A stretch of DNA of 64,000 bases from Fervidobacterium thailandense. GTDB taxonomy: Bacteria; Thermotogota; Thermotogae; Thermotogales; Fervidobacteriaceae. The notes under the pieces were generated by a model that ran no database searches, was not told the origin of the DNA, and saw only the letters and a program-made list of their open reading frames with translations. This document shows positions 2,866-19,071 of the stretch, piece by piece. The position numbers were made by a program, and so were the translations under genes. Positions within the stretch are counted from its first letter, which is position 1. The number at the start of each line of letters is the position of its first letter. The DNA is taken from positions 124,001 through 188,000 of the forward strand of contig NZ_LWAF01000001.1 in the NCBI RefSeq assembly GCF_001719065.1. Reading direction: 5' to 3'.

Positions 2866-2887
2866 TCAAACACCTCCGTGAAAAATT

Positions 2888-3175
2888 TTATCGCTGCTGG
2901 ACCTTGATGAGTATTTCACTAACATCGAGTTTGCATACTTCGTGAATTTTCCTTTTCAGTTTCCTTCTGAGCATTCTGATCTCGTTTGCCCAGATGTAAT
3001 CATCGCAAACGATCACTAACCTTCCATCAACGAAATCGGTGAAGGTGCAATGCTTTGCAATGTGTTCACCAAGGATTTGGAGTTCGTGTTCTTTCAACAA
3101 GGATAACGCGTAGAGTTTGCCGAAAAACGGGTTTGTACGGGAGAGTTGCTCGAGGATGTTTTTTAGAGTAAGCAT
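2888..3175 (-). CDS. dciA: DciA-like (DUF721) protein
   Basis: A 95-residue protein ending with a segment typical of the DUF721/DciA family, VCDDYIWANEIRMLRRKL, followed by a conserved hydrophobic strand. DciA proteins load or support the replicative helicase in bacteria without DnaC/DnaI, and DUF721 genes often sit directly before gyrB, as here. The gene overlaps the upstream aminotransferase by 13 bases, suggesting translational coupling. The family call rests on this motif and the neighbourhood; function in this organism is inferred. Confidence 0.7.
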   Translation of the reverse strand: MLTLKNILEQLSRTNPFFGKLYALSLLKEHELQILGEHIAKHCTFTDFVDGRLVIVCDDYIWANEIRMLRRKLKRKIHEVCKLDVSEILIKVQQR

Positions 3176-3912
3176 TTAACATACTCCTCGAAAGCTTTGG
3201 AGAGTTTGCTACTCAGTTCCACCGATTTGGTTTTCAGCGTCCCAATCTGATTTACCGGGACTATTCCTCGACTGGTGTGTGTGAGGAATACCTCATCTGC
3301 GTAGAATAGTTCAGCCGGTTCGACGAATCGTTCTTCAACTTCGTAACCACTCTCTTTGAGGAACCGTATTACGTACATGCGTGTGATACCATCGAGAATT
3401 CCCGATTCCAGCGATGGAGTTATGAACTTCCCGTTTTTAATTAGGAACACGTTGCTGAACGTCCCTTCACAAACCTGTCCCTTCGTTCCGAGCATGATGA
3501 CGTCATAATTATCGCCCTTTGTGAGTCGAGCCAAATAAATATCCGGCCGCCCCAACGATTTCAGGTCCGGTGGAATACTCCAAGGATCGGCTCTTCTGAC
3601 GGTTGTGATGTCCACTTTAACGTATTCGACTTTGAATTCTTCGGTGTCTTCTTGAAAAACGTACTCCAACAGACTCTTGCTGTAAACGTAAACGATTCGC
3701 ATGCGTTCGGACAGGTTTTCGTACACGAGTTTTTCGAAGTCCTCAAACGCCGGTGGTTCGATTTTTAAATAACTAAGGGACTTTTTGAGCCTCTCGTAGT
3801 GTTCTTTCAAAGCGAATGGTTTACCGTTGTAAGTTCTCAGTGTTTCGTAAACCGCTATCCCCTTTGTGAGTGCAGTGATTACATCATCCATTCGATGCTT
3901 GCTTTTGAACAT
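3163..3912 (-). CDS. Class IV PLP aminotransferase (branched-chain aminotransferase / aminodeoxychorismate lyase type)
   Basis: A 249-residue fold-type IV PLP enzyme. Recognisable parts are GIAVYETLRTYNGKPFALKEHYERL near the N terminus and CEGTFSNVFLIKNGKFITP with the PLP-binding Glu near 149. The likely Schiff-base lysine is K118 (DLKSLGRPD). The C-terminal EVFLTHTSRGIVPV fits 4-amino-4-deoxychorismate lyase or D-/branched-chain aminotransferases; the sequence alone does not separate them. The start at 3912 has AAGGGGTG upstream; ATG 3891 is an alternative with poor spacing signals. It overlaps mtaB by 29 bases from the first start. Confidence 0.8.
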   Translation of the reverse strand: MFKSKHRMDDVITALTKGIAVYETLRTYNGKPFALKEHYERLKKSLSYLKIEPPAFEDFEKLVYENLSERMRIVYVYSKSLLEYVFQEDTEEFKVEYVKVDITTVRRADPWSIPPDLKSLGRPDIYLARLTKGDNYDVIMLGTKGQVCEGTFSNVFLIKNGKFITPSLESGILDGITRMYVIRFLKESGYEVEERFVEPAELFYADEVFLTHTSRGIVPVNQIGTLKTKSVELSSKLSKAFEEYVKCLL

Positions 3913-5185
3913 TCTTCGAGAGCACCCCTTCTTCCGTTACCGAACAAATCCTGACCCTAATAAAATCGCCGATTATACCCTCTGATGTTTCGTGGTGGTT
4001 GTAGTACTCATCGTATCCGAAGTAAACCCCGTTCTGAGCTCCTTCTACAAGCACGGTTACTTGTTTACCAACCAACCTGGTCCTATACCTTTCCGCTACT
4101 TTCTTGGCAAGTTTAATAAGAGTTTCGGCACGCTCTTTCCTTATGTTCCCCGGGATCTGATCTTCGAATTGTGCCGCTCGTGTGTTTGGACGCTGGGAAT
4201 ACCTGAATGTGTGCACACGACTGAATTCGGCCTCGGAAACGAGCTTTAGCGTTTCCTCGAAGTCCTCATTGCTTTCACCCGGGAATCCAACGATGATGTC
4301 CGTTGAAATGGAGAAGTTCTCATCGAGTTTTCTGAGCTTTTCGAAAAGCCTCATGAGATCTTGTGTTGAGTAGTTCCTTCCCATTCTCTTCAAAACCGCA
4401 TCACTACCACTCTGGATAGGTATGTGTAAGTGGTTGCAAATCTTATCTGTGTTACGAATCAGCTCAATTAGTTCATCCGTGACATCTTCCGGGTTTATCG
4501 AACTCAATCGTATGCGAAAGTCTCCTTTTATCTTCGCGATCTCAGCCAACAATTTCGTCAACGATGCGTTGATGTCACGACCGTACTTTCCAAGATTTAA
4601 GCCCGTCAGTACGATTTCCTTGTGCTTTTTCTGGACAAGTTTTTCTATTTCGGTTACAGCAACCTCGATGGGTTTGCTTCTAATCTTTGTCCCACGTAAG
4701 CTCCGAATGACACAATAAGTACAACCGTTATTGCAGCCATCCTCGACTTTGACGAAGGCTCTGGAACGCTCCAAGACAGAATTGCTGACTATTTCGAAGG
4801 AGATGTCGTCTTCGATCCAATAATCCTGCGATGCGTAGATACCGTTTTCCTGAAGAAAATTCAGAATCCTCTTTTTCTCGAGATTTCCCAACACCAAGTC
4901 CACACCAAGGGCTGTGTACTCCTCGGGTGTTCTCTTCACCTGAGCGTAGCATCCTGTCAAAATCAGTTTTGCGTTGGGGTTTATCTTCTTTAAATGTCTT
5001 ACCGTTTGTCGGACTTTTCTTTCCGCTTCCGCTGTGACTGCGCATGTGTTTAAAATGTACGCACTCACCGACGGGTCGTCAACGGTTAAAACGACGTAAC
5101 CGGCGTTTTCAAGAAGCTCGACGATCAGCTCACTTTCGTATTGGTTGAGCTTACAACCCTGAGTTATGACCGCTATCCTCGTCAC
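3884..5185 (-). CDS. mtaB: tRNA N6-threonylcarbamoyladenosine methylthiotransferase MtaB
   Basis: A radical SAM methylthiotransferase that converts t6A37 to ms2t6A37 in ANN-decoding tRNAs. The 433 residues show the three family parts: an N-terminal MTTase domain with cluster cysteines C11 (TQGCKLN), C48 (NTCAV) and C79 (TGCYAQ); the radical SAM motif CNNGCTYC at 151-158; and a C-terminal TRAM region. TQGCKLN and the overall length favour MtaB over MiaB or RimO. The GTG start at 5185 overlaps the TGA of the CBS-domain gene by 4 bases (GTGA), so translation is probably coupled. Confidence 0.9.
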   Translation of the reverse strand: MTRIAVITQGCKLNQYESELIVELLENAGYVVLTVDDPSVSAYILNTCAVTAEAERKVRQTVRHLKKINPNAKLILTGCYAQVKRTPEEYTALGVDLVLGNLEKKRILNFLQENGIYASQDYWIEDDISFEIVSNSVLERSRAFVKVEDGCNNGCTYCVIRSLRGTKIRSKPIEVAVTEIEKLVQKKHKEIVLTGLNLGKYGRDINASLTKLLAEIAKIKGDFRIRLSSINPEDVTDELIELIRNTDKICNHLHIPIQSGSDAVLKRMGRNYSTQDLMRLFEKLRKLDENFSISTDIIVGFPGESNEDFEETLKLVSEAEFSRVHTFRYSQRPNTRAAQFEDQIPGNIRKERAETLIKLAKKVAERYRTRLVGKQVTVLVEGAQNGVYFGYDEYYNHHETSEGIIGDFIRVRICSVTEEGVLSKNVQKQASNG

Positions 5186-5652
5186 CGGTTGTTCACCACC
5201 AGCTCACGTTTCATCGCAGTTTTGATAACGGACAATCGAGTCAAAGTACCGAGTAACACGCCGTTGTCGTCAACGACGGGAAGTACCTTAAAACCTTTGC
5301 GCATTATCAAATCGGCCACGTAAAGGAGTGTGTCAGTTGGCTTCACGGTGACAGCGGGCTTTGTTGCGTACTTTCCAATAGGATCTTTGGAGATTTTTTT
5401 CAAATTAGATATGAAGAGGTTCGTATCCGGCAAGAATGCCGCGCTCTGGAGAAGGTTAAAATAGCTCGGTAAACATGCTCTGATGATATCATCCTCGCTG
5501 ATGAAACCTATCACCTTCAGGTCGCTGTCGACCACCGGTACTCCGGAAATGTTTGACATGTCCAGTAACTCTATCACGCTTTCAACGGTTTCATTTTCGA
5601 AGACGAAAGTCATATCGTAAGTCATCATTTCAGCGACGGTTACGCGATTCAT
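5182..5652 (-). CDS. Two-CBS-domain protein
   Basis: A 156-residue stand-alone Bateman module: the first CBS repeat spans about residues 1-60 (MMTYDMTFVFENETV ... GFISEDDII) and the second about 90-150 (ATKPAVTVKPTD ... GTLTRLSVIK). CBS pairs bind adenosine nucleotides and act as energy or ligand sensors; the partner here is unknown. ATG 5652 has a strong Shine-Dalgarno (GAGGGTGGA); a longer in-frame extension upstream lies inside the pfkB gene and is less likely. It starts 1 base after the sugar kinase stop, within the gyrB operon. Confidence 0.85.
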   Translation of the reverse strand: MNRVTVAEMMTYDMTFVFENETVESVIELLDMSNISGVPVVDSDLKVIGFISEDDIIRACLPSYFNLLQSAAFLPDTNLFISNLKKISKDPIGKYATKPAVTVKPTDTLLYVADLIMRKGFKVLPVVDDNGVLLGTLTRLSVIKTAMKRELVVNNR

Positions 5653-5653
5653 A

Positions 5654-6607
5654 CTATTCCACCCTCTCCACCAAAATCGCTTCGAGTGTCTTCTCAATAT
5701 CCTCCCTCTTCGGTGGTTCTTTACCAAGGTACTTGGTTTTGGCAACGGCTGCTGCGTAACCGTAGCGTGCCATGTCAAGACAGCATCTGCCTTCGAGGTG
5801 ACTCAATATCATCGCGGAGACGAAGGTATCACCAGAACCAAGCAGGAAAGAGTGGTCTATTTCGAACTTTGGTGAAAATTTCCACACTCCTTCCGCCGTC
5901 GCGACAAAGTCGAATATTGTTTTGTACGACAGGATAACCAGCTTGGCTCCCCTCTTTATGAACTCCTTCGCCGCGTTGATGTATTCTTCTTCGCGTTCGA
6001 GATACGTTCCAAGTATCTTCTCGCTACGTCTCATATCGTATTTCAAAACATCCGGGAAAGCAATTTTTATCGACTCGGTGATAATTTCATCTCGAGCCTC
6101 CCAAAAGACCATTTTACCGTACTTCTTGGCAATATTTGTAAGCTCGCCGTATGCCGAGAGTGGTACACCTCTTGGAACGCTTCCAGAGATGACTACCACC
6201 TTGACCTTCTGCACGAGAACCTCAAACCTTTTCAGAAAAAGTTCGTATGCCTCGTTTGTTATAAACGGCCCTTCGGAATTGATTTCGGTGAGTGTGTGGT
6301 TGAGTGTATCCTCTATTGCAATGTTTTCGCGCGTCTCGTCGCGGATGTGGACGAAACTTGTTGTCAACAAGGGTCCTACTTTCCGAAGTTCGGAGACGAG
6401 AACGTTACCGACGTAACCGCCAACAAAACCAGTGAGTATCGTCGGGATGTTGTATTTTGATAGAATTACAGCAACGTTGACGCCCTTTCCTCCGGGCGTC
6501 ATGCGGTTCAACTCGTTCGGCACAATGTTCAATTTATTCAAAGTAAATCCATTTATCACAAATTCCCTATCAAGCGCTGGATTCAAACACACAGCCAATA
6601 CCTTCAC
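5654..6607 (-). CDS. PfkB-family kinase, 1-phosphofructokinase-like
   Basis: A ribokinase/PfkB-fold sugar kinase of 317 residues. The N terminus (LNPALDREF, then PGGKGVNVA at 38-46) is characteristic of the 1-phosphofructokinase / tagatose-6-phosphate kinase branch. The C-terminal anion hole and catalytic base are GSGDTF with D260. The substrate is probably a phosphorylated ketohexose, but no PTS gene is near, so FruK itself is not assured. The GTG start at 6607 overlaps the ABC ATPase stop by 4 bases. Confidence 0.85.
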   Translation of the reverse strand: MKVLAVCLNPALDREFVINGFTLNKLNIVPNELNRMTPGGKGVNVAVILSKYNIPTILTGFVGGYVGNVLVSELRKVGPLLTTSFVHIRDETRENIAIEDTLNHTLTEINSEGPFITNEAYELFLKRFEVLVQKVKVVVISGSVPRGVPLSAYGELTNIAKKYGKMVFWEARDEIITESIKIAFPDVLKYDMRRSEKILGTYLEREEEYINAAKEFIKRGAKLVILSYKTIFDFVATAEGVWKFSPKFEIDHSFLLGSGDTFVSAMILSHLEGRCCLDMARYGYAAAVAKTKYLGKEPPKREDIEKTLEAILVERVE

Positions 6608-7344
6608 ACGGACCCCTCCAAGATAAACTCATCGGGCCTTCCGGAGTAGATGAAACGTCCGGAATTCATCACAATGAGAACATCAGCAAGCGCTAAGAAC
6701 CTTGTGAGTGTTCTTGTGGATATCACGATTATTTTACCACTTTTTGCCATGTTTTTCAGCATGTTTGTTACCTTTTCCACGTGCTCGTCGTCGAGGTGAT
6801 CGAGTATGCAGTCGAATATTAGCAACGAAGAAAGTTTCAGTGACGATATGAAGAGCAATAATCCAATTTTTTCGAGTACGTAGAGGGAAGAAAGTGGGGT
6901 TTTTTCGAACTTGTACAGTGCTTTCAGAACTCCAAATTCGTCGAGTGTACTCGCGTACTCTTCAACACTGAATTTGAAACTTTTTCCGAAAACAAGATGT
7001 ATTATTTCCCTTAACGTCAAATAGTCCATGGATTCCAGGTAATTCGTGTCCAGGTAAGTTACCAACTGCCTGAGCTCTTGTTCCTTGAAACTCTGGAGGT
7101 CTTTTCCATCGAACAAAATGCTTCCGGAATATGTAATCTCCGGATAAATCTCCTCGTTTAATTTTGCGAACGAACGGAGGAACGCCGATTTACCAGAGCC
7201 ACGTGGGCCGTACAGGAGAGTAATATTCCCCGACTCGAAAACAGTAGAGATTCTTTCAAAAAGATAATTACCACGTACTCTCGCGGAGAAATCAATCACT
7301 TCTACTTTGGTTACGTTCACCTGCGACTCTATCTTTTTCACCAC
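6604..7344 (-). CDS. Degenerate ABC-type ATPase
   Basis: A 246-residue protein with the fold order of an ABC ATPase but with most catalytic motifs lost. Walker A is good (GPRGSGKS, 46-53). Where the Q-loop should be, the sequence reads YLDTNYL with no glutamine. The signature LSGGQ is replaced by LSSLY near 151-155. Walker B ends in LLIFDC, with Cys179 in place of the catalytic Glu, and the switch His is Arg211 (ISTRTLT). The C-terminal VMNSGRFIYSGRPDEF is typical of ABC importers. It may bind but not hydrolyse ATP. No membrane partner is adjacent. GTG 7344 (or 7341) follows AAAGGTGG. Confidence 0.75.
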   Translation of the reverse strand: MVKKIESQVNVTKVEVIDFSARVRGNYLFERISTVFESGNITLLYGPRGSGKSAFLRSFAKLNEEIYPEITYSGSILFDGKDLQSFKEQELRQLVTYLDTNYLESMDYLTLREIIHLVFGKSFKFSVEEYASTLDEFGVLKALYKFEKTPLSSLYVLEKIGLLLFISSLKLSSLLIFDCILDHLDDEHVEKVTNMLKNMAKSGKIIVISTRTLTRFLALADVLIVMNSGRFIYSGRPDEFILEGSV

Positions 7345-7495
7345 TTCCCACCTTTCTTCTGGTGGACTGAGCGCCTTGATCTTTCAAACGTTCCTTCAAC
7401 GCTTCTTCAGCATTCGGGTGCCCTGAATTAAGCAGGCGGATAATTTCGTACTGGGAGAGCACTTTCTCTCGAAGGAATTTCTTGAACTTTTCCAT
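7292..7495 (-). CDS. Small leading protein of the gyrB operon
   Basis: A 67-residue, highly charged reading frame with a Shine-Dalgarno (GGGAG) before ATG 7495 and the operon promoter just upstream. It overlaps the start of the ABC ATPase by 53 bases in another frame. The first 40 residues (YEIIRLLNSGHPNAEEALKE) look like a folded helical protein; the tail is low-complexity and may only reflect the overlap. I do not recognise a family. A leader peptide or a genuine small subunit are both possible. Confidence 0.45.
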   Translation of the reverse strand: MEKFKKFLREKVLSQYEIIRLLNSGHPNAEEALKERLKDQGAQSTRRKVGSGEKDRVAGERNQSRSD

Positions 7496-7536
7496 ATCTT
7501 ACGCTCCCTTCATCGAGTCCGTTACCCATCACAAAA

Positions 7537-7542
7537 ATTATA
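7537..7542 (-). promoter_or_regulatory. Extended -10 promoter of the gyrB operon
   Basis: TGGTATAAT on the minus strand, about 42 bases before ATG 7495, with no good -35 at 17 bases. It is the only promoter-like element I see for the eight genes down to gyrB. Confidence 0.6.
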
Positions 7543-7677
7543 CCACCCCATCCTTACCCCGTCTTTTAACTTGTGTGAACATTTTGGGTAGAAGGTTACG
7601 GGAAAATTGCTTTCGTGTCCCGCTGGTATTTTCTAAAGTCCTAAACCATCCGGAGAATCTGTACTGTGTATTGTGTA

Positions 7678-9270
7678 TCAATTTGTATTACCCAACTCAA
7701 GGGTCCATATGAGCCCGAGCTCACCGGAATTTCTGTCGAAATACCAAATATAATCAAAGTCTAAATAGTTTTCAAGTTTTCCTATTTCTGACTCATATAA
7801 AACGAGACTTCGAGAAACATCATCGAGTCTGTCCACGTATGAATTTCGATCATTTGGAACAACGAGAAATACTCTGTTAATCTCTAATCCTTCCAAAGTC
7901 TCAATGTAAGTTTCCGATGAAACTTTATTCGACGATTTTTCAAGTGAAATTATTTTGTAGAACGCTCTAAATTCGCGATATGTCCAGAATTCTCCAAAAT
8001 TTATGACCTTCGAAACACTTCTGTTGACAGTTGAGTTTGGGGCTACATCATGGCCGAAGGCTGCGCAAATAAGACCTTCTAACCTTCCCGTGTAGAGACT
8101 GTTAGAAACCATTCCGTAGTTTTTTAAGAAGAATGGAGAAGCATACATTCCCTTTATGTCACAAGTTACACAGCATTCTGAAACAGAGCCATAGTTCCAA
8201 ATTGTCAATCCTGAGGTTACTGCGTCGAGTGTATGATTTGATACACTTCCAGACAACTGAATTTTTTCTGCTCTTCCAAAGTTACCAAAAATACACGAAA
8301 AATTCCCTCCAGTGAAAGAAACTTCGCAACAGATTTCTTCAATTTTTCCATCATTTACCAAAGTTAGTCCAAGAACAGAACTGTACGAACTTGTAATAAT
8401 ATCACCTTTTACAAATGTCTTTGAAACGTTCCCAAGATTGTACATAGCAACTCCAAAGAGGAGAAAGTGTTCAACTTCTTTAGAATCAAGACCGATTGTT
8501 ATCTTCGCACTTTCAATTTCACCACCAGGCATATTGTGGAGTGTTACTCCCGCTGCAACAACCCAAAGGTTACTATCAAAACTTTTATCCCAAGAAATAT
8601 TGACTGTAGTATTCTTTATTGTTCCGCTGTTTTGCAAAAATAGACCTCCAAAAACTGCAATCACTCCATTTCGCTCGTACAGGAATTTAGTGTTGTAGTC
8701 AGTATCTGGGAGAAGAGTCGTTATCCCAATCCGCCTATACGGCAAGATCAACGGTTCGTTAGCTCCTACTGACTGTGTAGGTTTGTGTTTCATTGAGACC
8801 TTGACGAGAAACGAACAATTAGATATTTCCCCTTTGTTCATTTGTGCAAGAGCAGAACTCACTGTCCCCGGTACAACTTCGAGTTCGAAATTCGTATTCT
8901 TGATCACACTGCCTTCGGAGATTTCTCCAATCAGGGATGCTTTGTAGCTTGTTCTGAAGTCCAATTTTAAGCAACTTATAGTTTTTCCATTTCCGTCAAG
9001 CTCTCCGTTGAATTTTCCAAAGCGTTCCAGGTTCAGATTTGAGAGGTCGATGTTGTTGATCAACTTGTAATATGCGAAATCACGGTCGAATATTCGTGTG
9101 AAGTCATCTGGTTTTTCGATAAGATACGGATCATCCTTTGTACCAGAGCCGCGTAATTTTCCGTCTTTTTGTTCGGAATCAGTATCGCGAAACACGATCA
9201 GGATCGTAAACAAGGCACTTAAGAAAGCTACAACCGACAAACCGACTATAACATAGAACTTTAATCTCAT
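7678..9270 (-). CDS. Membrane-anchored GLUG-like surface protein
   Basis: A 530-residue protein with one N-terminal hydrophobic segment (about 5-27) and an exported remainder. Residues 40-60 carry GSGTKDDPYLIEKPDDF, the usual lead-in of GLUG / beta-helix proteins, followed by many short strand repeats of the type GSVIKNTNFEL, GEISNCSFLV, GTIKNTTVNI and GSVSECCVTC. This suggests a right-handed beta-solenoid displayed on the envelope. ATG 9270 has AAAGGGGGAG upstream. Codon use is AT-richer than in neighbouring metabolic genes. Ligand and role are unknown; an AAATG tandem repeat lies 120 bases upstream. Confidence 0.6.
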   Translation of the reverse strand: MRLKFYVIVGLSVVAFLSALFTILIVFRDTDSEQKDGKLRGSGTKDDPYLIEKPDDFTRIFDRDFAYYKLINNIDLSNLNLERFGKFNGELDGNGKTISCLKLDFRTSYKASLIGEISEGSVIKNTNFELEVVPGTVSSALAQMNKGEISNCSFLVKVSMKHKPTQSVGANEPLILPYRRIGITTLLPDTDYNTKFLYERNGVIAVFGGLFLQNSGTIKNTTVNISWDKSFDSNLWVVAAGVTLHNMPGGEIESAKITIGLDSKEVEHFLLFGVAMYNLGNVSKTFVKGDIITSSYSSVLGLTLVNDGKIEEICCEVSFTGGNFSCIFGNFGRAEKIQLSGSVSNHTLDAVTSGLTIWNYGSVSECCVTCDIKGMYASPFFLKNYGMVSNSLYTGRLEGLICAAFGHDVAPNSTVNRSVSKVINFGEFWTYREFRAFYKIISLEKSSNKVSSETYIETLEGLEINRVFLVVPNDRNSYVDRLDDVSRSLVLYESEIGKLENYLDFDYIWYFDRNSGELGLIWTLELGNTN

Positions 9271-9389
9271 GTTACTGCTCCCCCTTTCATGATTCTTAAT
9301 CTTGATTGTACTCCAGTTCTGTCAGCTTACTAATCTCATAATCCAAAGGAAATTCACATTTTTTGACGAGCCGATGGAAATTGAAGCGA

Positions 9390-9424
9390 AAATGAAATGA
9401 AATGAAATGAAATGAAATGAAATG
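9390..9424. repeat. Tandem pentanucleotide repeat, seven copies of AAATG
   Basis: Seven perfect copies of AAATG in a row, lying between the divergent starts of the surface protein (9270) and the small peptide gene (9527). Such short tandem repeats can change copy number by slippage and so alter promoter spacing. Confidence 0.95.
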
Positions 9425-9464
9425 AGAACAACTCTAATAGCCCGACTTCCGTGTTGAAAAATTC

Positions 9465-9487
9465 TACTACTCGTCCTAATAGTAGTA
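9465..9487. promoter_or_regulatory. Inverted repeat upstream of the peptide gene
   Basis: TACTACT (9465-9471) and AGTAGTA (9481-9487) form a perfect 7-bp inverted repeat around 9 bases, 40 bases before ATG 9527. It could be an operator or a weak hairpin; no T-run follows. Confidence 0.4.
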
Positions 9488-9526
9488 TGTGGGGCGGGGG
9501 ATGCTTGTAAATTGGGGGGTGAAAGG

Positions 9527-9733
9527 ATGTTCACTGTTAGAGATATTTCGATGCTATCACCTGCTGATACTGGCTATTACTTCGAACCGGTTCGAGCAGG
9601 GTACAAAATCACGAGGGAAGAGTCATCGGCCCCGGATCTGTATAACGAAACTCAGTTTCAGCAGATAAAGCATTTAGAGGGGTTCCTGCCTGGAAAAGAA
9701 AAGTCGCTCTTAGACATGGGAGTTACGTTTTAA
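9527..9733 (+). CDS. Small peptide of unknown function (68 aa)
   Basis: ATG 9527 is preceded by a very strong Shine-Dalgarno (GGGGGGTGAAAGG), which argues for real translation; an in-frame TTG at 9512 is too close to it. The product is 68 residues, has no cysteine and no membrane segment, and is mixed in charge (SPADTGYYFEPVRAGYKI in the middle, SLLDMGVTF at the end). It is the first gene of a three-gene plus-strand cassette ending with a CPBP protease, within otherwise minus-strand surroundings. I do not recognise it. It may be a substrate peptide, or a remnant of a larger gene. Confidence 0.5.
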   Translation: MFTVRDISMLSPADTGYYFEPVRAGYKITREESSAPDLYNETQFQQIKHLEGFLPGKEKSLLDMGVTF

Positions 9734-9805
9734 TCTTGACAGTTTAACCAAATATAACCTCCCCGCCCCTCTTCGCCACGCTTCTTAAAGCGAGGTATCT
9801 TGTGA

Positions 9806-10432
9806 GTGCGGTTGCAAAATGTTAGCTTCCTCGTCTTCGACTCACGAGAAAAGAAATTCAGCGGCTCCTTTGACCTCATAGATCTTGAGAAAATTCCCGA
9901 TGGTATTCTCTACGCAATAAAGGTTGGAAATCGGTATATGGAAAAAAGCCTACTGGGGGACCCAGTATGGCAAAGACCGTTGTTTGGAAACAGAAAAATC
10001 CATGTTTTCAAGCGGCAGAGAAAGGTGATAAATTTATCAGAGCTGAGCATCTGGTTTTCTGATAGAGCATGTGATCGATCAAGATTGCGGTTATACAGAT
10101 TTATTGATAGGCAAATCTGGTTTTGTATTAGATTAAAATCGCCACAGCCTGTTTCTGTCTTGGCTTTGTTTTTTATAAATGATAAGTTGGATGATTTTTT
10201 CTTTTGGTGTCCACGGCTTAAATTAGATCATATGAGCTATCTGCTTACCTTGGAAAGTCTCTACCAGGTTAGTAAGAATTATGAATTTCAGAATCACTCA
10301 AAGTCCTTTCTAACGGTACGAGTCTACGTTGATGGGATAAAGGTAGCTACTAATTCGCTTGAATTCGTGGAACTCAATTATGTGACTTTGCGGGTTACTC
10401 GAAGTCAGTTTTTCTGGTATAATCGTCGTTGA
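9806..10432 (+). CDS. Unrecognised protein in CPBP cassette
   Basis: A 208-residue frame starting at GTG 9806, with GAGGT nine bases upstream; a stop lies directly before the GTG, so no longer start is possible. The sequence is rich in aromatic and strand-forming residues (QIWFCIRLK, VSVLALFFINDKLDDFFFW, FLTVRVYVDGIKV) and basic, ending in FFWYNRR. No signal peptide or known motif is visible. It is AT-rich compared with flanking metabolic genes. Its position between the 68-residue peptide and the CPBP protease suggests a shared function; none can be named. Confidence 0.55.
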   Translation: MRLQNVSFLVFDSREKKFSGSFDLIDLEKIPDGILYAIKVGNRYMEKSLLGDPVWQRPLFGNRKIHVFKRQRKVINLSELSIWFSDRACDRSRLRLYRFIDRQIWFCIRLKSPQPVSVLALFFINDKLDDFFFWCPRLKLDHMSYLLTLESLYQVSKNYEFQNHSKSFLTVRVYVDGIKVATNSLEFVELNYVTLRVTRSQFFWYNRR

Positions 10433-10493
10433 AAGATCATTTCGAGCTCTTGCTGAGTTTAGAGGAGGAGACTGAGGAGAGCTGTTTTGACCT

Positions 10494-11429
10494 ATGTTAT
10501 TAGTCAAAATATTTATTCTCATTAGTTTAGTGGGTTTGCTCGCGTTTTTGAAATCGAAGTTCTACGTTATTTTTCTAATAACCTCGAAAAGTCTTTATAA
10601 ATTTGAAATTTTGAGTGGCCGAATAACTGGTCGGTATAGTGATTTCAGTCCTTATTTTGAATATCAATTCAAAATGAACGATTTTTTTGAAGTAGCCTTC
10701 GCATTACTTTTTATACATACGATTTTCTACTTTCCGCTATACGTTGCTTCCAAAAGGTTGTTTGCATCGGATCGTCAGCACGATGAAAGCCTGCTACAGA
10801 AAGTTACCTTGTCATTGCTTAAAATACTCTTGTTAACGGTGGCTGTTACACTCATATCGAGAGTGTTCCAATTAGGTTTTTTCAAGAACTACTTGACTTT
10901 TAATTTTTCGAGACAGTATCTACGCGAGAACTTCCTGATATACGTGTTGAAGGCTTTCGATGACTCCCAAGTTGGCTTTTGGGAAGAACTGACGGCAAGG
11001 AAGATCATACTCGAGGGACTGATCTCAAGTATTGGATTTTCAAGAGGTTTTTGGTTAGCAAATTTTGTCTTTTCATTTTTCCATATCTTTGTCGCATTCG
11101 AAAAGTCACAAAATATAATCGAGTTATTGGTGGTAATGTTAAACTATGTTTTGCTGTCGGTAGTAATATCGACTGTATACATTCGTTCTCGGTCAGTTTT
11201 TTGCGCTGGGGTGTTTCACGCAGTAACGAATTTTGTGGAAGGCGTTTACCGTCCAATCGGACAAAAATTTCCTTGGTCAATGCGTGAAGCGGTGGTGCTA
11301 ATGGGAAACCATTGGGTGTTGTTTGGAATCCTCATTTACTTGCTACACCCTGTGATTGAAATAGTGGGGGAACGTGTGACCCCTTCAGAAAAATATTCAG
11401 AAAGATGGGACATTAAACTGTTATCCTGA
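10494..11429 (+). CDS. CPBP-family intramembrane glutamic endopeptidase
   Basis: A 311-residue polytopic membrane protein with the CPBP (CAAX protease / bacteriocin-processing, Abi) signature. Motif 1 is EELTAR with E164, E165 and R169; motif 2 is FSFFHI with H197; motif 3 is HAVTN with H242 and N246. Members cleave prenylated or peptide substrates within the membrane; bacterial ones include bacteriocin maturation and immunity proteins. An N-terminal membrane segment at 1-30 precedes the core. GAGGAG lies about 13 bases before ATG 10494, a somewhat long spacing. Substrate unknown; the upstream peptide is a candidate. Confidence 0.8.
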   Translation: MLLVKIFILISLVGLLAFLKSKFYVIFLITSKSLYKFEILSGRITGRYSDFSPYFEYQFKMNDFFEVAFALLFIHTIFYFPLYVASKRLFASDRQHDESLLQKVTLSLLKILLLTVAVTLISRVFQLGFFKNYLTFNFSRQYLRENFLIYVLKAFDDSQVGFWEELTARKIILEGLISSIGFSRGFWLANFVFSFFHIFVAFEKSQNIIELLVVMLNYVLLSVVISTVYIRSRSVFCAGVFHAVTNFVEGVYRPIGQKFPWSMREAVVLMGNHWVLFGILIYLLHPVIEIVGERVTPSEKYSERWDIKLLS

Positions 11430-11495
11430 ACCTTAACTATTTCGGAACTTGTGATGTCGTACGGAGTGCACTGGACCGGGGCCACATTTGGTTTA

Positions 11496-12365
11496 CTAAG
11501 AATGGGAATCTTTGGACCTTAGCAAGGAATTTAGCGATATAGCAAGGATAATAAGTATCATTCCCAAAATTTGGTAAGCTCTCAGCACCTCATTTCGTAC
11601 AAGGTTCCCAGCAACAACGGATACTACGGTCGTTAGATTTGCAAAGAGTGAGGAGACAGTTGGCGAAACCTTACTGAGCATAAAGTTCACAAGGAAGAAC
11701 GCTACCACGGAGGAGAGTATTCCCAGATAAAGGGCAGAGACAATCACGGGAGCCTGGAGTGTCAATTTAAACTGACCGGACACTAAGCTCAAAAATAGGA
11801 AGAAAATGAAACCGGTAATCATCATGAAGAACGTTATTTCCTCCGGTTTGAATTCCGATGAAAGCTTTCTCGATGAAATGTTGTAAAGTGCAGCGGAAAA
11901 GACGGCACCGAGTATGAGAAATTTTCCCAGCAGTCCTTGGAAGCTGAATTGACTAAACCCGATTATTAAGGAAACACCGAAAAAGCTCATTAATCCGAAG
12001 AGGTACTGGTACCACCTCACACGTTCTTTCAGTAACACGGGACTCAGAAGCATAACCACTATGGGAATAATCGCAATAAGCATGCCTGCCTCCGAAGAGG
12101 TTGTAAACCTAAGACCGTTAGTTTCAAAAGTAAAGTACAGCACCGGTTGAAAGATGACCACCCGCCAAAGTTTCCAGTAAGGCTTTCTTGAGAGTTTGAT
12201 GATTCTGAGCAGACTGAGGATCATTACAGCGATTGTTGCAACGAAGAAACGGTACGTGAGGAACGTGTAAGGATGAACGTAGTCAAGGGCGTTTTTGGTA
12301 AAGAGAAATGAAAGGCCGAATATGAACGATATTGATAAGCCCGATATGATAACCGAAAGGCTCAA
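11496..12365 (-). CDS. EamA/DMT-superfamily transporter
   Basis: A 289-residue integral membrane protein with about ten hydrophobic helices in two EamA halves (residues 1-140 and 150-285), each beginning with the typical FIFGLSFLFTKNAL / GAVFSAALYNISSRKL pattern. DMT transporters export amino acids, metabolites or drugs; the substrate cannot be read from sequence. The start is TTG 12365, chosen because AAGGAGG stands at ideal distance. The gene converges with the CPBP gene and lies downstream of the aminotransferase, separated by a terminator. Confidence 0.85.
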   Translation of the reverse strand: MSLSVIISGLSISFIFGLSFLFTKNALDYVHPYTFLTYRFFVATIAVMILSLLRIIKLSRKPYWKLWRVVIFQPVLYFTFETNGLRFTTSSEAGMLIAIIPIVVMLLSPVLLKERVRWYQYLFGLMSFFGVSLIIGFSQFSFQGLLGKFLILGAVFSAALYNISSRKLSSEFKPEEITFFMMITGFIFFLFLSLVSGQFKLTLQAPVIVSALYLGILSSVVAFFLVNFMLSKVSPTVSSLFANLTTVVSVVAGNLVRNEVLRAYQILGMILIILAISLNSLLRSKDSHS

Positions 12366-12434
12366 AGTATCGCCTCCTTGTTCAATCGTTGCGTAGTCTT
12401 TTTAGTGGAATCTAAGTGCAATTTAAGAGGATTC

Positions 12435-12457
12435 AAAAAACCCCGCCAAAGGCGGGG
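12435..12457 (-). terminator. Intrinsic terminator behind the aminotransferase gene
   Basis: A 7-bp GC stem (12441-12447 with 12451-12457), a 3-nt loop and a run of six T on the minus strand. It ends the gcvT-gcvPA-gcvPB-aminotransferase transcript. Confidence 0.9.
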
Positions 12458-12476
12458 TAGCATATTTTTTCAATTC

Positions 12477-13601
12477 TCAAGAGTTCAAGAATTCTTCAAG
12501 TCTTCTGAATCCTTCCTCCAGATTCTCAAGCGATGTGGCAAAGCTGATTCTCACAAAGCCAGGCATGTCGAACGCACTGCCCGGTACGGTGGCGACCATT
12601 TTCTCCTCCAAGAGTCTGTGGCAAAATTCTTCATCGTCACCGTCAACTTTGAAGAACAGGTAAAACGCTCCTTTTGGTTCAACAAACTCGAGTCCGAGCT
12701 GTTTGGCCCTGTTAACGACAAATTCACAACGCTTTTTGAACTCGGCGATCATGTAAGAGTTGTCCGTTTTACACGCTTCGATAGCTGCGTATTGTGCTAT
12801 CGTGTTGATATTGGATGCAACGTGGCTCTGGATTTTTGAGACTCTCTTCTTAATTTCCTTATTCTTTGTGGCTGTGTAACCGACTCGCCAACCGGTCATT
12901 GCGTGCGATTTGCTGAAGGCGTTGACGTATATCAGAAGCTCTGGTTTAACAAGGCCGTAGAGTGAACGGTGCGTTCCAACGTAGACCAGTTCATCGTACA
13001 CCTCATCTGTAACAACGTAAACGTTATTCTCGTTTGCAATGTGTGCGATCGTTTCGAGCGTTTCCTGAGTGTAAATGACTCCGGAAGGATTGTTCGGGGA
13101 ATTGACCACAATGGCTTTCGTTCTGGGACTCAGATGCTGAAGTATTTCCTCCTTTGTCGGCACAAATCCGTTCTCGTAACGAGTGCGTAAAACGACCGGT
13201 TTACCCCTGACCAGGTGTATCTGTGCCGGGTAGCTTACCCAGTACGGTGCGAAGAGCAAAACTTCATCACCTTCGTCGAGAATGGCAGCAAACGCATTGA
13301 AAAGTGCTTGTTTTCCGCCATTTGAAACGACGATTTCATCTGGTGAAAACTCAACTCCTTTTTTCGTTTTAAGGTACTCGGAGATTGCATGCCGCAACTC
13401 CGGGATACCATCGCTGTCGGTGTACTTTGTCAGGCCCTTTTCGAGAGCTTCGAAGGCCTTTTCAACGATCGGTCGCGGAGTTTGGAAGTCTGGTTCGCCT
13501 GCAGTGAGGTTGATAACCGGTTTCCCTTCCGATTTTAGCTTTTTTGCAAGAGAGTCTATCTGCAAAGTTTTGGATGGTGTGATCAGTTCCGTGGGATGCA
13601 T
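12477..13601 (-). CDS. Class I aminotransferase (aspartate aminotransferase type)
   Basis: A 374-residue PLP fold-type I enzyme of the Ib subgroup. Visible are LTAGEPDFQTP (31-42), NSPNNPSG (168-174), D199 and Y202 (VTDEVYDEL), the Schiff-base lysine K231 in NAFSKSHAMTGWRVGY, and the C-terminal VRISFATS that holds the carboxylate-binding Arg. Substrate is most likely aspartate/2-oxoglutarate, with broader specificity possible. The start at ATG 13601 follows AGAGGTGATC; longer in-frame starts would run into gcvPB. It is the last gene of the glycine-cleavage operon, 7 bases behind gcvPB, suggesting linkage of amino-group and one-carbon metabolism. Confidence 0.9.
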   Translation of the reverse strand: MHPTELITPSKTLQIDSLAKKLKSEGKPVINLTAGEPDFQTPRPIVEKAFEALEKGLTKYTDSDGIPELRHAISEYLKTKKGVEFSPDEIVVSNGGKQALFNAFAAILDEGDEVLLFAPYWVSYPAQIHLVRGKPVVLRTRYENGFVPTKEEILQHLSPRTKAIVVNSPNNPSGVIYTQETLETIAHIANENNVYVVTDEVYDELVYVGTHRSLYGLVKPELLIYVNAFSKSHAMTGWRVGYTATKNKEIKKRVSKIQSHVASNINTIAQYAAIEACKTDNSYMIAEFKKRCEFVVNRAKQLGLEFVEPKGAFYLFFKVDGDDEEFCHRLLEEKMVATVPGSAFDMPGFVRISFATSLENLEEGFRRLEEFLNS

Positions 13602-13608
13602 TCTACGA

Positions 13609-15042
13609 TCACCTCTTGAATCTGAACACCGGGTATTTCGTCGCGCTGACGTCATCAAGGCGTCGCACCGGTGTGGTGTACGGAGCACCTTTCACCAATT
13701 GTGGATTTTCTTGTGCTTCTTTCGCAATCCTTTCCATCGCTTCCACAAAAGTGTCCAACGTTTGCTTACTTTCAGTTTCCGTAGGTTCAATCATCATTGC
13801 CTCGTGGACGATAAGTGGGAAGTAAATCGTTGGAGCATGCAAACCGTAATCAAGCAAGCGTTTGGCGATATCGAGTGTCTTGACCCCGGTTTTCTTTGCG
13901 AATTCTTCGTTATCAATGACAAACTCATGCATGCATATTCTGTCGTACGCGATTTTGAAGGTCTTTGAAAGTTTTACCCTAAGGTAGTTCGCGTTGAGAA
14001 CGGCCATGTCACTGACGTGTTTTAAACCTTTACCGCCCATGGTGAGGATGTAAGTGTACGCTTTTACGAGAACTAAGAAGTTTCCGTAGAACGTACGCAC
14101 CATTCCGATGCTCTTTGGCAAGTTGTAATCCAGTTCGTACTTTTCACCGGATTTTCGTACAACGGGTACTGGCAAATACGGAGCCAATCGCGCTTTCACA
14201 CCAATAGGCCCGCTACCTGGTCCACCCATACCATGTGGCGTGCTAAACGTTTTGTGCAGGTTCAAGTGAACTATATCAAATCCCATGTCACCCGGCCTTG
14301 TGCGGCCCATTATCGCGTTGAGGTTCGCACCGTCGTAGTAGAGCAGGGCACCCACATCGTGTGCCATTTTGGCTATCGTCAGTATGTCTTTTTCGAAAAG
14401 ACCGAGCGTATTTGGATTAGTGAGCATTATTACCGCAACGGTATCATCCAAGTGTTTCTTCAGTTCTTCAAGATCCACGCACCCATCCGGTCCGGATTTG
14501 ATTTCGATTACCTCAAATCCCGCCATCGCAGCTGAGGCTGGATTCGTTCCATGTGCGCTGTCCGGAACGATTACTTTTTTGCGTTTCTCGAGTTCGCCGA
14601 TGTCTTCAAAATACGCGCGTGCGATGAGAAGTCCTGTGAGTTCACCGTGGGCACCGGCGGCCGGTTGCAACGTCATGTCGTCAGTACCGGTGATTTCACA
14701 AAGGAGTTCTTTGAGATGTCCCATCAGTTGTACTGCACCCTCGATTGTTTCGCGTGGTTGGAACGGGTGAAGTTGGGTAAATAGCATTGCCATGTCTTCG
14801 TTTATTTTAGGATTGTACTTCATTGTACATGAGCCAAGCGGATAAAACCCGCGGTCGACGGAATAGTTTTTCAAAGCGAGGTTTGTGTAATGCCTAACGA
14901 CGTCCACTTCCGAAACTTCCGGAAGCATCGGTGGATCTTTTCTAAGGAGGTGTTCAGGGACATTGCAACCGGAGTCTGGCACGTCGTACGCTGGCAGTTC
15001 GTAACCTTTTCTTCCAGGTTTTGAGCGCTCGAAGATGGTCAT
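13609..15042 (-). CDS. gcvPB: Glycine dehydrogenase (decarboxylating) subunit 2
   Basis: The C-terminal half of the split P-protein. Together with GcvPA it decarboxylates glycine with PLP and passes the aminomethyl group to lipoyl-GcvH. The 477 residues include [14 protein letters not shown] (66-78), QPAAGAHGE (126-134), [10 protein letters not shown] (161-170) and the PLP lysine K264 in [12 protein letters not shown]. Start ATG 15042 overlaps the gcvPA stop by 4 bases, so translation is coupled and the stoichiometry of the two subunits is probably fixed. Length and motifs are normal for the family. Confidence 0.95.
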
Positions 15043-16373
15043 TTCTTCATCACCTCAACAAGCTTGTCCATTGATTCTTTCGTGTTCACTTCCGTGGCAC
15101 ATACGAGAGCAGATGGACCGAGTTCTTTGTAAACCCTGTCGATCGGGATGGGACCGAGGATACCGTTTTTAGCCATCTCGTGCCACCTATTCCGGTAATC
15201 ATCGGGGACTCTTACAACAAACTCGTTGAAGAACTCACCGCTGAAAATTTTTGCAAATCCGGCTTCCTCAAGCTTTTTGGCCAGGTAATGTGCGTTATTA
15301 TACGAACGGTATGCTACCTCCCTCAATCCCTGCGGGCCCATGACCGAGAGATAGATTGCGTTGATGAGAGCAATGTAAGCCTGGTTGGAGCAAATATTTG
15401 ACGTGGCCTTTTCGCGTCGTATGTGTTGTTCCCTTGTTTGGAGAATCATGACGTAACCGATCTTTCCCTCTAAATCCTTGGTCTGACCGATTAGCCTACC
15501 TGGCATTTTCCTAACGTGCTTTTCAAGTGTTGTGAAGAATCCTATTCCAGGACCTCCCAGGTTGGGTGTGACACCCAAGGACTGACCTTCACCAATGACG
15601 ATGTCGGCACCGAACTTTCCGGGTGCTTCTAAGAGAGCGAGTGATACCGGTTCGGCCACCACGATGAAGACAACGTTCTGAGGTATGAGTGAACGGATTG
15701 CCTTTAAGTCTTCGATGAAACCGAAGAAGTTTGGATAAGCAACGGCTACAGCGGCCGTTTCGTCGTCCAGCTTTGCTTTCAGTTCATCGAGGTTTACCGT
15801 TCCAAGTTCGGTGTATCCGAGTTCCTCGATCTTTATCCCAATTGGCTTTGTGTACGTTCTTGCAACGGTTCGATACTCCGGGTTTATGGTCCTGGCTACG
15901 AGCATTTTGTACTTTCCCGTGATGCGCGTGGCCATGAGCAAACTCTCGGCAAACGAACTTGCACCATCGTACATTGAGGAATTCGCAACTTCCATGCCTG
16001 TGAGTTCACACATCATTGTCTGGTATTCAAAGAGCATTTGAAGTGTACCTTGTGAAACTTCGGCTTGGTACGGTGTGTAGGCTGTGACGAAGTTTGGATT
16101 GGCGGCGAGGTGCTTCACCACAGTTGGAATATAGTGGTAGTAAATACCGGCACCGAGGAAAACAAATTCTGGTTCAAATGTTTTATTCTTCCGGGCAAGT
16201 TCTTCCACAAGCTTCCTAACGGTGAACTCATCTTTGCCATCGGGAATGTTGTAGCCGTCTATCGTTTTTGGAACATCAATGAACAAATCATCTATACTCC
16301 CAACGCCAATTTCTTGGAGCATCTCCTTTATCTCTTCTTCAGTGTGTGGAATGTACCGATGCACCGTGTACAC
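15039..16373 (-). CDS. gcvPA: Glycine dehydrogenase (decarboxylating) subunit 1
   Basis: The N-terminal half of the split glycine decarboxylase, 444 residues. Family landmarks are [14 protein letters not shown] near the start, [12 protein letters not shown] (about 93), [16 protein letters not shown], and [15 protein letters not shown]. It has no PLP lysine of its own and works with GcvPB. The gene begins 11 bases behind gcvT. In many Thermotogales operons gcvH lies between gcvT and gcvPA; here nothing fits in that gap. Confidence 0.95.
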
Positions 16374-16384
16374 CTCCTAAAATT

Positions 16385-17677
16385 TTAGCTCTTTTTTCTC
16401 ACGCTACCACGGTAGAACGGTGTTTTCACAATAGTTGCATCGATGTACTTGTCCCGTATGAGGATCTGAACAGTATCACCCAATTTAATACCGGCGTCTA
16501 CCATCACGAACGCGATTGGTTTTTCGAGTGTTGGAGAGAACGTCCCACTTGTAACGTGTCCTACTTCTTTTCCATCTTTGAATACCTGCATTCCGTGTCT
16601 GGGGATGAGCTTGGAATCGAGGGTAACACCTCTAAGCCTGCGTTTCAGACCCTCTTCTTTCTGTTTCAACAACGCTTCTTTTCCATGGAAATCGGCCTTT
16701 TCAAATTTTACCGCCCAGCCAATTCCGGCCTCCAGCGGCGTTACTGTTTCGTCCATGTCGTTTCCGTAAAGTAGCAAACCGGCTTCGAGTCTCAGAACAT
16801 CGCGCGCACCAAGCCCAGCGGGTTTGACACCGATTTCTATCAGCTTACGCCACACGATGGGAGTCTCGCTGGCCGGTAGGTACAACTCGAAACCATCCTC
16901 GCCCGTGTAACCGGTTCTGGAGACGATGCCCCTGATTCCACATACCGTGGCCTCGGCAAACGAATAATAACCGATCGTCTCAAGGTCCACGTCCACCAAC
17001 GGTTGTAGTGTTTCCTGAGCTTTCGGACCTTGGACGGCGATCAAACCGGTTTCGTCGGAAACATTTTTAAGTTCAACGTTGAAATCTTTCGAGAGCTTCG
17101 CCAAGTGGTTGAAATCCTTCTCTATGTTAGCCGCGTTGACTACAAACATCACTTTTTCTGGACTGATTTTGTATACGAGTAAATCATCGACGAAGCCACC
17201 GTTTTCGTTACACATCGCGGTGTAGATTACATCACCTACAGGAATGGATGCAAAGTCGTTAGTGACAACGTAATCTGCAAACCTTACCGCATCCGGTCCT
17301 TCGGCTATGAATTCACCCATGTGCGATACGTCGAACATGCCCACGTTCTTACGTACGTTTAAAACTTCTTGCACGATTCCTTCGTACTGGAGTGGCATAT
17401 AGAAACCAGCGAATTCCACGATTTTCGCACCGAGTTTAACGTGATCTTCGTACAGTGGTGTGTACTTCACTCCTTTTCCCTCCCCTTGCAATATCGAGGC
17501 CGCTTCTTCGTACTTGTCCTCTGGCACGAGGATCTCGCATTGAACACTACTGCCGAAAATTGGATGGACGAAGAGGTCGGTTTTTTGGATCAGAACCGGA
17601 ATTCCGTACGCTTTTAAAAGTTTTTCAACGATTTGCGCCTCGATTTCCCCAACGGTCGTTTTGATAATTTTCCACAT
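16385..17677 (-). CDS. gcvT: Aminomethyltransferase GcvT with N-terminal DUF2007-like domain
   Basis: T-protein of the glycine cleavage system; it transfers the methylene group from aminomethyl-lipoyl-GcvH to tetrahydrofolate, releasing ammonia. The GcvT part runs from about residue 72 (TPLYEDHVKLGAKIVEFAGF) to the end and shows GMFDVSHMGE, SRTGYTGEDGFE and RLEAGLLLYGNDMD. The first 65 residues are extra: IEAQIVEKLLKAYGIPVLIQ followed by CEILVPEDKYEEAASIL reads as a DUF2007-type domain. At 430 residues the protein is about 65 longer than ordinary GcvT. ATG 17677 is the first gene of the operon, with an extended -10 some 55 bases upstream. Confidence 0.92.
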   Translation of the reverse strand: MWKIIKTTVGEIEAQIVEKLLKAYGIPVLIQKTDLFVHPIFGSSVQCEILVPEDKYEEAASILQGEGKGVKYTPLYEDHVKLGAKIVEFAGFYMPLQYEGIVQEVLNVRKNVGMFDVSHMGEFIAEGPDAVRFADYVVTNDFASIPVGDVIYTAMCNENGGFVDDLLVYKISPEKVMFVVNAANIEKDFNHLAKLSKDFNVELKNVSDETGLIAVQGPKAQETLQPLVDVDLETIGYYSFAEATVCGIRGIVSRTGYTGEDGFELYLPASETPIVWRKLIEIGVKPAGLGARDVLRLEAGLLLYGNDMDETVTPLEAGIGWAVKFEKADFHGKEALLKQKEEGLKRRLRGVTLDSKLIPRHGMQVFKDGKEVGHVTSGTFSPTLEKPIAFVMVDAGIKLGDTVQILIRDKYIDATIVKTPFYRGSVRKKS

Positions 17678-17730
17678 GTTCGCTCCCCACCACAGAGTTT
17701 TGATAAAACAAAACGATTTGCTTTACTAAC

Positions 17731-17736
17731 ATTGTA
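17731..17736 (-). promoter_or_regulatory. Extended -10 promoter of the glycine cleavage operon
   Basis: TGGTACAAT on the minus strand about 55 bases before ATG 17677, without a convincing -35. The leader is too short for a glycine riboswitch. Confidence 0.5.
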
Positions 17737-17766
17737 CCATGGTAGGAAAAGTAGGAGAAATCCGTT

Positions 17767-19071
17767 CTATTCCTCCCAATAGCGTTTGCTAACGACTTTC
17801 AGGTGAGATGCATCTTTTTTGTACCTTCCCACTTTAGCGCACGGTTTTCCTTCAACTTCCACAATGTCCGCGGTAATGTCTATCTTTTTCTTAAGTAATT
17901 TCGAGCCGACACCGTACACGTCCGCCGGGACACCTAAGGATTCAAATAGCCTTATTTTCTCCTCGTCAAAGCCACCAGAGACGACTATCTTCAGATCCTT
18001 CAAGCCAACTTTGTCGAATTCTTGTCTGGCCTTCCACACCAGTTCAGGACACACACCGAACGATTGTGGTCCGATGGGTGTGACCGACTTATCTCTGAGA
18101 TTTCCGGAAGTATCAAACCGTACGCCCCATATCTTTCTTGGCCCGGGTCCAATAATCGGTGATGGGTCCGTGACACCGAGGATGAATTCCTTGCCCATGA
18201 CGTGCTCGTAGAATTTCTTTACCACCTTGAATGTAGTTCCTATCACATCGTTGTCCCAGTCAACCAGTACGATCCTATTGACGTTTTCCGGCATATATTT
18301 ATCGAAAGCTATTGCGGCATCTTCCGTGCTACCGTTGTACGCGGCAATCAGTGCGTGCGGGATGGTACCCATCGATTCCACGCCCCAATAGTCCGCGTTC
18401 GCATCGGTGGAAACGCCAAAGGCACCAGCCTTTAGGGCTGCGTAGCCATCCGTTGCCTGGACCCAGTAATGGTCAAATCGCGCACTGAAGAACAGTATCG
18501 GCTTACCGTTTGCCGCTTCAACAACTTTTTTCACAGCCGTAGCCGTACTCGTCGCGCGTGCAATAACTCCCAGAAGTACTGTCTCCAAATATCCGAAGTA
18601 AACCGGGTCGCCTTGAATCGTCATCAACGGTTCTCCTTCAGGAACGAACTCGCCATCGTAGACCGCGCGCACCTCTATTTCGTCCCATTTATCCACCCAT
18701 AGCTCGTTTAGTCTTAGTCTCACATCCCACTTTCTTCGCGTGAGTTCAACTATCTCCTCGACGTTCCCCTCCACCGAGAGTTCTTGCATTTGTTTGTCCA
18801 ATCTGAGGATCTCGTTGTACAATTCTCGGGCTTTTTCTTCGTCTTTGTAGTATCCAGTACAGTAGCGCAGGATCGCGAGTGCTTCATCCACCCCGCACAC
18901 TATCGCATCGTCTCTTGGGAAGAACTGGTAGTACACAATAGGATGCCTATTGTCTTTCTTCAGTACCTCAACGTAGCGGGTGAAGTACTTATCCGAATAG
19001 TACCCCATGCGTATTCGATCTATGGGAACTTTGAATACCTTCGGATGGAGTCGTTTCGTTGAAACGCTCAC
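17767..19071 (-). CDS. pncB: Nicotinate phosphoribosyltransferase
   Basis: Converts nicotinate and PRPP to nicotinate mononucleotide in NAD salvage. The 434 residues show the family pattern: GYYSDKYFTRYVEVLKK near the N terminus, EGEPLMTIQGDP, GVSTDANADYWGVESMGTIPHALIAAY in the middle, and a C-terminal GGFDEEKIRLFESLGVPADVYGVGS phosphate-binding segment. The start is GTG 19071, which has GGAGGTGA at ideal distance and overlaps the preceding stop by 4 bases; a longer frame upstream lies in that gene. The assignment to NAPRT rather than NAMPT follows from overall pattern. Confidence 0.88.
   Translation of the reverse strand: MSVSTKRLHPKVFKVPIDRIRMGYYSDKYFTRYVEVLKKDNRHPIVYYQFFPRDDAIVCGVDEALAILRYCTGYYKDEEKARELYNEILRLDKQMQELSVEGNVEEIVELTRRKWDVRLRLNELWVDKWDEIEVRAVYDGEFVPEGEPLMTIQGDPVYFGYLETVLLGVIARATSTATAVKKVVEAANGKPILFFSARFDHYWVQATDGYAALKAGAFGVSTDANADYWGVESMGTIPHALIAAYNGSTEDAAIAFDKYMPENVNRIVLVDWDNDVIGTTFKVVKKFYEHVMGKEFILGVTDPSPIIGPGPRKIWGVRFDTSGNLRDKSVTPIGPQSFGVCPELVWKARQEFDKVGLKDLKIVVSGGFDEEKIRLFESLGVPADVYGVGSKLLKKKIDITADIVEVEGKPCAKVGRYKKDASHLKVVSKRYWEE

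Follow-up and report, generated by a model that had tools for sequence, protein, structure and literature searches.

Gene content of the island

The window analysed here, a 64,000-nucleotide stretch of contig NZ_LWAF01000001.1 of Fervidobacterium thailandense, contains an AT-rich island with four genes (Table 1): a minus-strand gene for a GLUG-type repeat protein (P0004) and, diverging from it, plus-strand genes for a small acidic protein (P0001), a basic protein (P0002) and a CPBP protein (P0003). A perfect pentanucleotide array is lodged between the divergent genes. The island is a strain-specific insertion of about 4 kb, and 636 bp stand between the same flanks in the congener G001 (blastn). 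Both flanks are collinear at about 83% identity (blastn): window 952-7614 corresponds to L030 1668-8331 of the congener on the left, and window 11605-19101 to L030 8967-16465 on the right. The G+C content is 39.5% in the island and 46.1% in the rest of the contig, which bears out the AT-richness noted in the preliminary description. The plus-strand trio had also been described as standing alone among minus-strand operons. It does not, as the divergent gene and the array form one unit with it; the divergent gene is counted in the island because the stretch replaced in the congener is the whole of the island.

Table 1 Positions of the features in the window and at the counterpart locus L075 of G017
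Feature	Position	Strand	Remarks
P0004, 530-aa GLUG-type repeat protein	7678-9270	-	one N-terminal transmembrane anchor
(AAATG)7.2 perfect pentanucleotide array	9390-9425		between the divergent genes; proposed phase-variation tract
Predicted core promoter TTGAAA-18-AATAGT	9454-9483	+	small-gene operon; consensus match only
Leader common to G017, ATGCTTGTA, then GGGGGG ribosome-binding site	9501-9526	+	
P0001, 68-aa acidic protein	9527-9733	+	pI 4.9; no signal peptide
P0002, 208-aa basic protein	9806-10432	+	pI 9.8; GTG start; no relatives detected by sequence
P0003, 311-aa CPBP (Rce1-like) intramembrane protease	10494-11429	+	PF02517, 1.1e-8
EamA transporter gene, 3' end	11496-11604	-	diverged from the congener; probable right recombination joint
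AT-rich island	7615-11604		extends over the final ~110 bp of the EamA gene; delimited by blastn against congener G001
P0007, 472-aa GLUG-type homologue, full-length	L075 5687-7105	-	BLAST 9e-18, shuffle z 31
P0008, 118-aa acidic protein	L075	+	pI 5.0; positional counterpart of P0001
P0005, 214-aa basic protein	L075	+	pI 9.3; positional counterpart of P0002
P0006, 298-aa CPBP protein	L075	+	PF02517, 40.3 bits; homologous to P0003

The right border of the island falls inside the EamA gene and is a probable recombination joint. The last ~30 residues of this protein are 53% identical to those of the congener, compared with 94% for the remaining protein. Such a pattern would be expected from allelic exchange with a donor whose EamA gene adjoins the island, and either congener may have changed. 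No relic of the cassette is recognisable in the 636-bp replacement. At L030 8331-8860 the congener has broken minus-strand frames that by eye resemble an ABC transporter ATPase and have no similarity to the cassette. An ABC ATPase gene of the window (6604-7344) lies outside the island and is conserved in the congener. The search for RNA families and tRNAs gave nothing relevant, and no component profile of known anti-phage defence systems matched (PADLOC).

Coding capacity was scored with a codon-context model trained on other genes of the window. P0003 and P0004 score as coding, as does the P0001 frame, with 0.011 bits per codon; the 115 spurious ORFs of comparable size all score lower. The score of P0002 is weaker (-0.244, reached by 42 of the 115); of the three plus-strand frames its own scores best in every stretch except the last, and 208 stop-free codons are in themselves unlikely at 39% G+C. 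The last ~30 codons (10346-10432) are poor in their own frame and good in the next, and the 3' end of the gene has possibly been frameshifted recently. The three plus-strand ORFs first reported are all real and correctly placed, the third encoding a CPBP protein as proposed. Derivation of P0001 and P0002 from a decayed larger gene is rejected, since the corresponding G017 genes are separate, in the same order and preceded by a common leader; three-frame translation gave no joined frame across the two.

The ribosome site of P0001 (-15.2 kcal/mol) had been called exceptionally strong; strong it is, but not unique, being equalled or bettered by 3 of the 41 training genes. Upstream of the start, the P0001 frame runs on as a hydrophobic stretch (9458-9526, KILLLVLIVVCGAGDAC...) without a usual start codon, overlapping TACTACT...AGTAGTA (9465-9487), an inverted repeat on the predicted -10 box. 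This 7-bp repeat is a possible operator.

Neither P0001 nor P0002 has a significant match in Pfam, NCBIfam, PADLOC or PHROGs, or in the PDB by sequence; cupin-like and other weak matches of P0001 are at chance level and were rejected. A GTDB scan with P0002 gave no result, and the middle protein, for which no relatives had been recognised by eye, has none in the databases searched either. Single-sequence AlphaFold models of P0001 (pLDDT 58) and P0002 (pLDDT 41) are too weak, and Foldseek returned no match for either at E <= 0.001. Comparison of P0001, P0002 and P0003 with phage records, plasmid records and IMG/VR yielded nothing of value, and that of P0004 with plasmid records and IMG/VR no result.

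The two larger proteins carry more recognisable features. P0003 scores 35.7 bits against PF02517, above the curated cut-off of 22.4, and spans the membrane several times, with at least five hydrophobic segments. Its motifs EELTAR, FSFFH and HAVTN correspond to EExxxR, FxxxH and HxxxN, all three intact. By profile and motifs, P0003 is a CPBP/Rce1-like intramembrane protease, the only CPBP protein found in its genome; the congener has none. P0004 has no PF07581 (Glug) match, while its G017 homologue reaches 23.1 bits (cut-off 20.5). The N-terminal anchor of P0004 looks uncleaved.

A second copy of the module in another genus

A search of 103 Thermotogota genomes with P0004 and the list of CPBP proteins converge at one locus, L075 of G017, which represents another genus of the same family. 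The layout recurs there, with a GLUG-type gene on the minus strand followed on the plus strand by genes for a 118-aa protein, a 214-aa protein and a CPBP protein. Co-occurrence elsewhere is borne out at the level of this four-gene layout, in a second genus. The cassette, called undescribed in the preliminary description, still merits the term: it is found in two genera, and its small and middle proteins are without Pfam, NCBIfam or PADLOC matches. The original trio belongs together and was incomplete, as the divergent GLUG-type gene is conserved best of all four. Two copies of the module are known, one in each genome, and among the 103 genomes the full-length GLUG protein is held by the same two that hold the array. 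The G017 cassette is AT-rich too (29.9% versus 38.7% G+C).

The GLUG pair, P0004 and P0007, aligns over most of its length. For the CPBP pair, P0003 and P0006, the shuffle z is about 6 and the alignment extends beyond the core domain. The first motif of P0006 reads QEFFYR instead of EExxxR, and the Q in place of the first Glu may mean that the G017 copy is damaged or non-catalytic. Similarity between the two small proteins, and between the two middle proteins, is undetectable (z below 1; nothing with hhalign); their equivalence is drawn from order, size and charge and, for the small gene, from the leader. Shuffles and hhalign gave no support for P0002 being homologous to P0005 or to a 335-aa middle protein from another G017 locus, and this relationship was rejected. 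Scans outside the phylum with P0005, P0006 and profiles, which reach close relatives only, found nothing, and a GTDB scan with the CPBP pair alignment, whose patterns are poor, brought back only the known distant relative.

An IS (L075 7340-8398) with an 8-bp duplication, TGCTTGTA, separates the predicted promoter of the small gene in G017 from its ribosome site. To judge from its position, it is likely a natural knock-out of the small-gene operon.

The charges of the small and middle proteins could suggest a toxin-antitoxin-like pair, with the acidic small protein encoded first and the basic middle protein after it, alongside a CPBP gene and a surface gene. The pI values, 4.9 and 9.8 in the window and 5.0 and 9.3 in G017, follow the same order, and the small gene has a strong translation start. 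Charge is weak evidence, however; no toxin, antitoxin or defence model matches, and the one feature resembling an operator is the 7-bp inverted repeat that overlaps the predicted promoter. Such a pair is considered very unlikely.

Other CPBP genes of the phylum have small neighbours. In G017, a second CPBP cluster (L076 3716-6267, minus strand) encodes a 186-aa signal-peptide protein, the 335-aa middle protein, which is anchored and perhaps distantly related to P0005 (z 4.2), and a 297-aa CPBP protein. A partial, partly broken duplicate of this cluster follows at L076 9203-11011 (minus strand), and at L076 11204-12817 (minus strand) a 130-aa signal-peptide protein is followed by a 391-aa CPBP protein. 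At L085, L089, L090, L091, L097 and L099, the gene immediately preceding a CPBP gene specifies a small signal-peptide protein of about 110-150 aa; these are possible bacteriocin-like or substrate pairs.

A bacteriocin-like or peptide-signal cassette would make the small protein a precursor, the middle protein part of its making or export, and the CPBP protein an agent of immunity or leader removal. CPBP proteins play such roles in streptococcal clusters (PMC9298176). The small signal-peptide protein genes that precede several other CPBP genes of the phylum, including those of L076, are in keeping with this proposal, and the loss of the first catalytic Glu in P0006 is compatible with a non-enzymatic immunity or receptor role. 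Against it, P0001 and P0008 are acidic, and signal peptides, transmembrane segments and leaders were looked for in both without success. No dedicated exporter was found between the island borders or in the G017 cassette, and the divergent GLUG gene and the common control region would be left unexplained. Peptide production, suggested in the preliminary description, is weakened by the same features of the small proteins and cassettes, and a cassette of this type is judged unlikely. From its sequence, the module could serve signalling, competition or defence. The module itself, four genes with their control region, is well supported by the two copies.

The common control region

The divergent genes are separated by homologous control regions of 256 bp in the window and 249 bp in G017, the latter counted without the IS and without one 8-bp duplication. 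The local alignment scores 44 against a shuffle maximum of 33 (n=300), the arrays themselves contributing part of the score. In the matching place G017 has the array (AGAAA)6.2. The distance from array to GLUG start is 119 bp in the window and 108 bp in G017, and that from array to small-gene start 101 bp and 110 bp, respectively. For the alignment to the right of the array, which includes the leader, an equally high score is attained by 6 of 300 shuffles.

The best plus-strand promoter-like sites of the two copies coincide, with the -35 element at 184/185, the -10 element at 208/209 and an 18-bp spacer in both. Such sites are not commoner than in shuffles, so the promoter prediction rests on the matching positions. 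Toward the GLUG gene, G017 has the promoter-like site TTTACA-17-TATAAT. Taken with the matching plus-strand site, it would place the array upstream of both predicted core promoters.

The arrays are unique in their surroundings. Apart from them, a survey of 276 kb of the window's contig and of a 240-kb sample of G017 gave no array of at least 16 bp with units of 2-9 bases. Five copies of GAAAW occur in 2 of the 103 Thermotogota genomes, at one place each and both times inside the cassette. Both copies have, in the predicted promoter region, a simple-sequence array that is long and perfect, one hallmark of a promoter-type phase-variable (contingency) locus. The arrays might nevertheless be neutral, the locus being an ordinary strain-specific surface gene with accessory membrane genes under constitutive expression. 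Only two copies are available, the repeat units are one base apart and could descend from one ancestral array, and the G017 copy bears an IS. Neutrality, however, predicts arrays elsewhere as well as decay, and the more than 500 kb covered in the two genomes has no other array of at least 16 bp, while a perfect array is kept at the matching place in both copies. This reading is judged quite unlikely.

Proposed mechanism

The reading preferred here is a horizontally exchanged four-gene module, probably a phase-variable surface or competition module, to which we assign a probability of about 0.5. Two divergent transcription units would use one control region of ~250 bp. One side would supply a membrane-anchored GLUG-type repeat protein, presumably at the surface, and the other an operon of the small acidic protein, the basic protein of ~210 aa and the CPBP intramembrane protease. 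Slippage would lengthen or shorten the array in steps of 5 bp, each half a helical turn, moving upstream-bound factors to the opposite face of the DNA or altering their spacing. By analogy with the promoter-spacing phase variation of nadA and vlhA, such a change of repeat number could alter promoter output and determine how strongly one side, or both, is expressed. In the membrane, the most likely target of the CPBP protein is a partner from the module; the best candidate, a conjecture by analogy with myxosortase, is the N-terminal anchor of the GLUG-type protein, which might be released or matured in this way. The small and middle proteins, which diverge fast, may serve as specificity or control factors.

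More tentatively, the two copies may belong to a hitherto undescribed family of phase-variable cassettes, for conflict or for the surface, in thermophilic bacteria, in which one pentanucleotide tract would set two divergent promoters at once. In such cassettes, a surface repeat protein would be coupled to genes for quickly evolving small and middle proteins and for an intramembrane protease, joined in one operon. Most known cases of phase variation come from host-associated bacteria. A narrow keyword search of the literature found no report of it in Thermotogota, and this may be the first contingency locus of promoter type to be noted in the phylum. Retention of a tract at one and the same position in two genera of a lineage that otherwise seems almost devoid of such arrays would indicate strong and fluctuating selection in hot environments, for instance by phages or competitors. 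The bacterial roles of the CPBP family are, to our knowledge, mostly unknown, and the cassette would offer a simple, testable system tying a surface protein to a CPBP protease.

Comparison with known systems

In SilX and SagE, the CAAX proteases of bacteriocin clusters (PMC9298176), a CPBP gene likewise adjoins a small gene. The small proteins of the present cassette differ in having no leader or signal, and the cassette has no transporter and includes a GLUG gene and a repeat tract. The myxosortase MrtX is a CPBP protease that sorts MYXO-CTERM proteins (PMC11980579); it acts on membrane-anchored surface proteins, and in some species its substrates are encoded divergently adjacent to it. The candidate substrate here, P0004, has an N-terminal anchor and no MYXO-CTERM.

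For the array, the vlhA promoters of Mycoplasma gallisepticum, with their GAA repeats (PMC6258824), provide one parallel. The vlhA array belongs to a surface lipoprotein gene and precedes its transcription start by about 40 nt, between conserved flanks; vlhA differs in being a multigene family with a trinucleotide unit and no divergent CPBP operon. The nadA gene of Neisseria meningitidis has a TAAA tract upstream of its promoter, together with NadR operators (PMC2791445). There too a short tandem array lies upstream of the core promoter of a surface protein and is thought to act through spacing. In the cassette, where switching is proposed from the array and its position, the unit is 5 bp long, the array lies between two divergent predicted promoters, and the partner operon includes a CPBP gene.
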